Assembly: GCA_025363315.1 (NCBI GenBank)
Contig: JANYED010000121.1
Coordinates: 1-38,322, forward strand
Direction: 5' to 3'
Length of the DNA: 38,322 nucleotides
Origin: Polaromonas sp.
GTDB taxonomy: Bacteria > Pseudomonadota > Gammaproteobacteria > Burkholderiales > Burkholderiaceae_C
Below are positions 710-6,390 of the stretch, one piece after another. The position numbers and the translations under genes are program-made. Every line of letters starts with the position of its first letter. Position 1 is the stretch's first letter. Under the pieces are notes generated by a model. It worked only from the letters and a program-made list of their open reading frames with translations, did not search any database and was not told the origin of the DNA.

Positions 710-1347
710 TTACTTAGCAAGCAAAGTTTTGCCCCTGGCCAACAGACCTGCAACCAGCGGCAGCACCTCCGCCACGCCCGGGCTAGATTGCCTGGCCTGC
801 AGCTGTAGGTAAACAGCATTCAGCGCTTTAAAGTCTTCAGGGTTATTTGAGCCTGCGGTGATTTTGTCGGCTATTCGCTTGACCTCTTTAAGCAGTGCTA
901 TCAACTCATTGTTTGCCGCTATTTTCTGATCGGCTGCCGCTATGTCTGCTCGGCTGCCGCTATGTCTGCTCGGTTTGCCGCTATGTCTGCTCGGTTTGCC
1001 GCTATGTCTGCTCGGTTTGCCGCTATGTCTGCTCGGTTTGCCGCTATTTTCTGATCGGCTGCCGCTATTTTCTGATCGGCTGCCGCTATGTCTGCTTGTA
1101 ACGGACAAAGATTGGCAATCGCCTCACCACGCCGGCGCTCATAGATAGGTATCAAATGGGGCTTGCCGTCGGCCTGCGCTCGGCTGATTTTGTTGGCGTA
1201 GTCGGTCATCAGCTCTGCCTCGCATTTTTTAAAAGCGTCTTTACCTGCATCTTGCGCTTGCGCAGCCACTGGCGTCAGCGCCAGCCACGCCGCCATGACA
1301 AGACCCGTCAGGGGCATTAAATTTAGCTTTAGCGGTAGTTTGGTCAT
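710..1347 (-). pseudogene. Secreted heptad-repeat protein, frameshifted
   Basis: The gene starts MTKLPLKLNLMPLTGLVMAAWLALTPVAAQAQ, a clear Sec signal peptide ending at AQA. A charged region with two cysteines follows (KKCEAEL and NLCPL). After that come seven-residue repeats of two kinds, ADQKIAA and NRADIAA, which should form an alanine/isoleucine coiled coil. Within the repeats one unit is 20 instead of 21 bases, so the frame is lost and translation stops at AAEQT. The lost C-terminus is intact in another frame: ADIAAADQKIAANNELIALL, then a long region ending LLARGKTLLAK at 710. Restoring one base would give about 212 residues. The N-terminal half is faintly like the DUF1090/YqjC family of periplasmic proteins, but I do not claim that. 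It could be broken, a sequencing error, or a switchable locus. Confidence 0.7.
918..1084 (-). repeat. Tandem 21-bp repeat (eight units) coding heptads
   Basis: Eight tandem units, starting at 918, 939, 959, 980, 1001, 1022, 1043 and 1064. All are 21 bases except the one at 939-958, which is 20. Two unit types alternate in blocks: one codes ADQKIAA, the other NRADIAA. The odd unit carries the left part of one type and the right part of the other, and it causes the frameshift in the host gene. Confidence 0.92.
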
Positions 1348-4752: not shown

Positions 4753-5673
4753 TCAGGCGCTTTTGGCTTCCAGCAGCTTGACCAGCGCCCACAGCACCCG
4801 GTTGGCCGGTGTAGCAACGCCCAGCGCCAGGCCGCGCTGAACGATGAAGCCGTTGAGGTAGTCAATCTCGGTCGGTTTGCCGCGTGCCAGGTCTTGCGCG
4901 GTGGACGACGATTGGTTCGGCATGCTGCCTGCCAGCGCTGCAACCGCTGCCTGCACATCGCCCGTTACATGCACGCCCTCAGCCTGCGCCACAGCCAGGC
5001 ATTCGGCCACCACGTCCTGCATCAAGCCCTGCACCCCCACGCCCTGCACTGTTTTGCCATACGGCAGCTGCGCGATAGCCGACACCGCGTTGTAGGCGCA
5101 GTTCAAGATCAGCTTGGACCACAGCTCGCCGCGCACGTTGCTCGACACCTCTGTCGGCACGCCAGCGGCTAGCAGCGCCTGCACCACCGCAGCTGTACCT
5201 GATGCTTCGATGACCAAATCGCCCCGCCCGTTGTGCTTGACGTGGCCCGGACCGGCCATTTCAGTGGCCACATACACCACTGCTGCGGCTACGGCCTGAC
5301 CAGGTAGCACGGCGCGCAAGCGGTCGGCGTTGTCCACCCCATTTTGCAGGCAAATAATTAGCGCATCGGCACACAAGAAGGGCTGCATCAAGCGCCCTGC
5401 CGATTCGGTGTCGCTTGATTTGACACTGAACAGCACCACGTCAGCGATGGCTATCGAGGCGACGTCAGTGCTGGCCTTAACTTGCACCTGCTCGTCGAAA
5501 CTCAGCGTTTGCAGCCGCAGGCCGTCGCGGTTGATTGCATCGACATGCGACTGCCGCGCAACCAGCATCACATCATGCCCAGCCCGCGCCAGCATGCCGC
5601 CGTAGTAGCAGCCCACCGCGCCTGCGCCCATCACGGCGACTTTCAACTTGGGGGCAGTGATTTCATGGTTCAT
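4753..5673 (-). CDS. panE: 2-dehydropantoate 2-reductase family (PanE/ApbA)
   Basis: A 306-residue NADP-dependent reductase. A Rossmann start, KVAVMGAGAVGCYYGGML (about residues 11-28), contains the GxGxxG motif. VLFSVKSSDTESAG and CLQNGVDN are the usual ketopantoate reductase stretches. The C-terminal helical domain carries the catalytic-lysine region ELWSKLILNCAYNAVSAI and the conserved SSTAQDLARGKPTEIDYLNG. PanE reduces ketopantoate to pantoate in pantothenate/CoA synthesis, but several paralogs act on other 2-oxo acids, so the exact substrate is open. The start was taken as the first in-frame ATG that stays open. It lies inside a seven-base tandem repeat of start-codon-bearing units. Confidence 0.87.
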   Translation of the reverse strand: MNHEITAPKLKVAVMGAGAVGCYYGGMLARAGHDVMLVARQSHVDAINRDGLRLQTLSFDEQVQVKASTDVASIAIADVVLFSVKSSDTESAGRLMQPFLCADALIICLQNGVDNADRLRAVLPGQAVAAAVVYVATEMAGPGHVKHNGRGDLVIEASGTAAVVQALLAAGVPTEVSSNVRGELWSKLILNCAYNAVSAIAQLPYGKTVQGVGVQGLMQDVVAECLAVAQAEGVHVTGDVQAAVAALAGSMPNQSSSTAQDLARGKPTEIDYLNGFIVQRGLALGVATPANRVLWALVKLLEAKSA

Positions 5674-5701
5674 AGTTCATGGTTCATGGTTCATGGTTCA
5701 T
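5664..5701 (-). repeat. ATGAACC heptamer repeat over the panE start
   Basis: On the minus strand the unit ATGAACC (one copy ATGAACT) is repeated five times and followed by ATGAAATC. Each unit holds an ATG, and because the unit is seven bases long successive ATGs fall in different frames. The in-frame start for panE is at 5673; an ATG 21 bases upstream meets a TGA within the repeat. Copy-number changes would alter how many competing starts lie ahead of the gene. Confidence 0.85.
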
Positions 5702-5736: not shown

Positions 5737-6390
5737 CTATTTTGACGCCTGCAGAACCACATCACCCACCATGTCCGCCGTGATGGCGCTCAGCGTCCAG
5801 CTCAGGTGGCCGTGGCCAGTGTTATAAAACCCATTGGCCGCCCGACCCCGGCCTACACGCGGCAGCATGTTGCGCATCATTGGCCGCAGGCCTGCCCAGG
5901 GCACGACCTAACGCGTGTCAATGTTGGGGAAGCATTGCGCCACCCAATTGATCAGCGGCGCGATGCGGTCTGCGCCCAGACGGCTGGTGACCAGCTTGGT
6001 CTCGTCGTCTAGCAAGCTCACACTCGGCGCGCCTGCGCAAACGACGATGCCGTCAAAGGACTGCGCCTTGCCTGACGCGTTCTCTGACGCGTTGTCTGAC
6101 GCGTTATCTTGCGAGGTGGTCACGACGATGGCTTTGTTCCCATCGCTTTGTACTGACTGGACGTCTTGACCGTACAACGTGTGCACGCCCAGACGCTCGG
6201 CAGCCAAAGCCAGGCCGTGGGTGAACTTGTGAATGTCGCCGCCCCTGAACGCCAAAGCGCGGTTTGGCTTGGTCACCATCGCATCGCGTACCGAGCCGCC
6301 CTTGCTGGGCAAAGTGCGTGCACTAATGCAAGACGTGCTGAAAGTCGCGTGCTCAACTGCTGCTTCAAAGCCTGAAAAACCCGTAAAATA
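5737..6390 (-). pseudogene. Decayed D-amino-acid dehydrogenase-like gene (DadA family)
   Basis: The minus strand encodes pieces of a DadA-type FAD oxidoreductase in one frame. An N-terminal remnant, FEAAVEHATFSTSC, is followed by DAMVTKPNRALAFRGGDIHK and FTHGLALAAERLGV. Next come FDGIVVCAGA, SLLDDETKLVTSRLG and APLINWVAQCFPNIDTR. A TAG at 5908-5910 interrupts at this point, and the frame then continues VVPWAGLRPMMRNMLPRVGR and NTGHGHLSWTLSAITADMVG to a TAG at 5737. The FAD-binding N-terminus is gone, and at least two internal blocks seem missing compared with the family (after VVCAG and after TSRLG). The gene cannot make a working enzyme. DadA proteins oxidise D-amino acids to keto acids at the membrane. 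Confidence 0.85.

Follow-up and report, generated by a model that had tools for sequence, protein, structure and literature searches.

Does one repeat unit of 20 bp, lying among the 21-bp units of a coding array, turn its gene into a reversible on/off locus, or does it mark an ordinary truncation? The question is raised by a minus-strand gene at 710–1347 of the window (the whole 38,322-nt stretch of Polaromonas sp. DNA analysed here). This orphan consists of a signal-peptide-like N-terminus, a heptad-repeat array and a C-terminal domain, and both of its ends are similar to positions 904–1319 of a Brachymonas contig (L011). Translation from the ATG at 1347 gives a protein which begins with MTKLPLKLNLMPLTGLVMAAWLALTPVAAQAQDAGKDAFKKCEAELMTDYANKISRAQADGKPHLIPIYERRRGEAIANLCPLQADIAA and continues with two ADQKIAA and four NRADIAA heptads. 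Judged by inspection, the N-terminus resembles a Sec signal peptide.

Tandem Repeats Finder detected a 21-bp array at 914–1096 (score 241), far above chance expectation, as well as a 63-bp period at 911–1096. Combined with reading of the minus strand, this places the array of 21-bp units at 911–1096. From the 5′ end, the units encode a partial QADIAA, ADQKIAA twice and NRADIAA four times, followed by the 20-bp unit, another ADQKIAA and NNELIAL. On the minus strand the ADQ-type unit reads GCCGATCAGAAAATAGCGGCA and encodes ADQKIAA, and the NRAD-type unit reads AACCGAGCAGACATAGCGGCA and encodes NRADIAA. The four NRADIAA units are identical, which shows recent activity of the array. The initial annotation had described a 20-base unit which breaks the frame of this protein, and both the unit and the break were borne out: GCCGAGCAGACATAGCGGCA, located at 935–954 of the minus strand (or GGCAGCCGAGCAGACATAGC at 939–958 in the register of that annotation), is the single 20-bp unit among 21-bp units. 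Because of this one unit in a 21-bp array, the ORF starting at 1347 (940–1347, minus strand) stops there after 135 codons, at a TAG inside the unit. The C-terminal part (ADQKIAANNELIALLKEVKRIADKITAGS..., 710–937, minus strand) follows in the shifted frame, which reads ...SRADIAAADQKIAANNELIALLKEVKRIADKITAGSNNPEDFKALNAVYLQLQARQSSPGVAEVLPLVAGLLARGKTLLAK past the break and stays open to about 710. Programmed frameshifting was considered as an explanation and rejected, no slippery heptamer being visible by eye at the 20-bp unit.

The sole homolog found, on contig JAAUOI010000047.1 of a Brachymonas sp. MAG (L011/L012), matches on both sides of the break, and in both genomes the C-part comes after the array. 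In this comparison, which rests on one allele per species, the N-parts are about 84–88% identical, with 6/4/18 differences at the three codon positions (NG86 dN 0.11, dS about 2.6). The C-parts show about 58% identity over 50 aa and 12/7/29 differences (dN 0.29, dS saturated). Since the Brachymonas copy is similar on both sides and its differences are biased towards third positions, the C-terminal part was formerly coding, and both segments flanking the break were under purifying selection after the lineages separated. Former coding sequence beyond the break is one mark of a pseudogene or truncated allele, and it was found here in the form of a conserved C-part with codon-position bias. An in-frame ortholog, another such mark and a check suggested by the initial annotation, was not found in the genomes, phages, plasmids and IMG/VR searched, the single homolog being frame-broken too. 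Its frame is interrupted between the signal peptide and the N-part, before the array, at the homologous junction in the array and after the array. The Brachymonas contig has a k-mer coverage of 1.53 and carries at least one other frame-broken gene (near position 4339 of L011, identified by eye as an FtsX-like permease), the remaining genes being mostly intact-looking. Given this low coverage and another broken gene, some of the Brachymonas frame breaks may be errors.

These observations also bear on other readings of the locus. If the 135-aa product were a functional protein, the C-part would be dispensable or a separate ORF. AlphaFold still models the truncated 135-aa chain as two helices with high confidence (residues 25–59 and 65–134, the second being the repeat helix), and a TTG at 1108 begins an open frame that crosses the array into the C-part. 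However, no convincing start codon of its own was seen near the C-part, and its conservation in Brachymonas, with the third-position bias and the same place after the array, argues against this explanation, which we regard as distinctly unlikely. An assembly or consensus error, with a true unit of 21 bp and an intact gene, is also unlikely. The draft assembly has 386 contigs, one of which begins with the window; the array exceeds typical short-read length, and the contig of the homolog combines the low coverage and the additional broken gene described above. On the other hand, the unit carries the first bases of the ADQ type and the rest of the NRAD type, a composition that no chance single-base change to one of the types would give, it lies outside any long homopolymer, and neither a second version nor a second copy of the array was found elsewhere in the assembly. 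As to the origin of the unit, it had been proposed to be a chimera of the two types, which both contain CCGA but one base out of register. The offset of CCGA is indeed 1 in the ADQ unit and 2 in the NRAD unit, and joining ADQ to NRAD at any point of this match yields the exact observed 20-mer with 0 edits. Among shuffled unit pairs, 18% have a match of at least four bases one base out of register, and the CCGA match alone is not beyond chance. The reading as an ADQ/NRAD hybrid joined at CCGA is exact but not unique, as a one-base deletion in a glycine-codon unit explains both the Polaromonas and the Brachymonas sequences at least as well. The NRAD unit is one indel and one substitution away from the 20-bp unit; a glycine-codon NRAD-type unit differs from it by a single base. 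The Brachymonas copy carries a glycine codon before RADIAA at the homologous place. Starting from the glycine-codon unit, the window and Brachymonas require 1 edit each; starting from the 20-bp hybrid, they require 0 and 2, respectively. No glycine-codon unit is left in the window array, however, and the hybrid route requires zero point changes in the window. We consider a one-base deletion in such a GRADIAA-like unit, without ADQ × NRAD recombination, to have a little less than an even chance; it is compatible with a truncated allele. A hybrid origin is plausible but not unique, two sequences being too few to choose between the two routes.

The initial annotation had further suggested that recombination among units could equally restore the frame, making this a possible on/off locus. 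Exchanges were enumerated between exact repeats of at least 8 nt within the array. Homology was longest, at 72 and 51 nt, for in-frame exchanges (21n), which leave the frame broken. Frame-restoring deletions were found at homologies of 37, 33, 24 and 19 nt, and every one of them spans and removes the 20-bp unit; no single duplication restoring the frame was present among the listed exchanges. The C-part would return to frame if 20, 125 or 146 bp were deleted by exchange over repeats of 24–37 nt, but there is no easy way back. As the unit measures 21 bp, a multiple of three, unit gain or loss cannot shift the frame, and since a restoring deletion leaves only 21-bp units, whole-unit exchange cannot break it again. 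Judging from homology lengths, a new break would need a rare 4-bp out-of-register event. With restoring homologies of 24–37 nt, reversion is easy in principle, and the locus would be better described by easy, one-way reversion of a rare mutation than by a two-way switch. Phase-variable loci either have repeat units whose length is not divisible by three or use a switch that inverts or recombines; here we found a 21-bp unit and a single 20-bp unit. They also switch ON and OFF with similar ease, which is not what homology lengths, the only measure used, suggest here (24–37 nt versus 4 bp). In the polyG tracts of meningococci, an example of simple-sequence-repeat phase variation, tract length sets the frame and non-multiples of three correspond to OFF (PMC4085013). 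The present locus is similar in that its frame depends on repeats in the coding sequence and slippage could change it, but differs in that the copy number of the 21-bp unit leaves the frame alone and one odd unit causes the break. Recent expansion of the array into identical units and the break of the Brachymonas copy at the homologous junction, like the deletions over 24–37 nt repeats, would fit a reversible locus in which unit recombination toggles the frame. Set against the loss of the 20-bp unit in every restoring event, its re-creation only by a 4-bp out-of-register junction, the neutrality of 21-bp exchanges and the absence of an ON allele among the genomes searched, this proposal was not upheld and is very unlikely. 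The break at the same junction in both known copies could hint at a hotspot. A slow, mostly one-way contingency locus, with the junction repeatedly broken and healed in two genera and slippage over 24–37 nt restoring the C-terminal domain of a heptad-repeat exported protein, is a long shot.

Searches of Pfam and NCBIfam yielded no family for either half of the protein, matches to ATG14 and CbiN being rejected as far below their cut-offs, and a PDB fold search with the 135-aa model returned no match at E ≤ 0.001. By eye, the protein shares with DUF1090/YqjC (PF06476) its export, a Cys on either side of an A-x-A-x-G-x-x-H motif, and a long helix. Membership was nonetheless rejected, with no BLASTP match, an hhalign probability of 0.2% and no Pfam hit, and its own genome contains no DUF1090 match. 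Size-variable coiled-coil proteins of the surface or periplasm, built on in-frame tandem repeats, are a known class. The gene is like these in that its 21-bp units are heptads whose gain or loss alters helix length, and unlike them in that no sequence relation was found and the copy here is frame-broken.

A profile search did not find the gene in the other 86 congeners, a single weak hit within an unrelated 282-aa frame (E 0.004) being taken as noise. Evenly drawn samples of the family (about 400 genomes), the order (about 400) and the class yielded only the Brachymonas MAG and weak matches. The gene was not found in the Brachymonas group's two other genomes, and phages, plasmids and IMG/VR gave no homologs. 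It is located within the first 1.74 kb of the window, a variable segment adjoining the 3′ end of rsuA. Nothing in this segment aligns to the rsuA-adjacent regions of eight congeners; rsuA itself aligns in those eight and the next transporter gene in three. The surroundings contain a cluster of toxin-antitoxin-type genes, namely a PIN-domain toxin-like gene, an HI1420-type antidote gene and BrnA with BrnT (30–461, 1387–1698, 1877–2377), the antidote gene having no evident partner. The gene is an orphan within a variable, toxin-antitoxin-rich segment. The Brachymonas homolog adjoins two ORFs (1559–1966 and 1963–2484 of L011), one of them VapC-like with a PIN domain by eye and the other probably an antitoxin, and this common setting may reflect a gene travelling with such toxin-antitoxin genes.

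Further features were observed in the window. The 3′ end of the RsuA-like pseudouridine synthase gene recurs as a further, partial copy at 1742–1852 and 2447–2557, with the BrnT/BrnA pair between. This copy is 82% identical to the window's own gene, 83–88% to the rsuA ends of six congeners and 78% to that of a seventh. This looks like an insertion at the rsuA 3′ end leaving a duplicated end. Downstream of the broken gene, a single long imperfect hairpin (AGCCCGCCTA...TAGGCGGGCT, 602–672) folds at −52.7 kcal/mol (z −5.0) and occurs once in the genome; it has no Rfam match, and an integron attC core was not seen by eye at its ends. At 5662–5701, 5.7 copies of the 7-bp repeat TTCATGG lie at the start of a ketopantoate-reductase-like gene (4753–5673, minus strand). 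The ATG of this gene falls at the array edge, and the number of these heptanucleotide repeats could vary. Finally, a short in-frame 12/24-bp repeat, CTGACGCGTTAT, at 6064–6109 lies inside a minus-strand ORF with a ASDNASENASGK stretch.

Taken together, the findings are best explained by recent truncation of an orphan accessory gene in this allele (probability about 0.65), a reading of loss or truncation and not of a regulated state. The gene product would be a small exported protein made of a signal peptide, a short helical N-terminal domain, an alanine-rich heptad-repeat helix and a C-terminal domain, the helix being built from in-frame 21-bp DNA repeats. Ordinary whole-unit slippage alters helix length with the frame unchanged. 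One 20-bp unit, produced either by an out-of-register CCGA junction or by a one-base deletion in a glycine-codon unit, causes a −1 frameshift, ends translation inside the unit after 135 codons and removes the C-terminal ~75 residues. If the break is an ordinary one, the locus would illustrate on a small scale how a single odd unit can throw an in-frame repeat array out of frame, and would caution against calling every repeat-linked frameshift phase variation. A population harbouring both states would make it a contingency locus built on heptad units.
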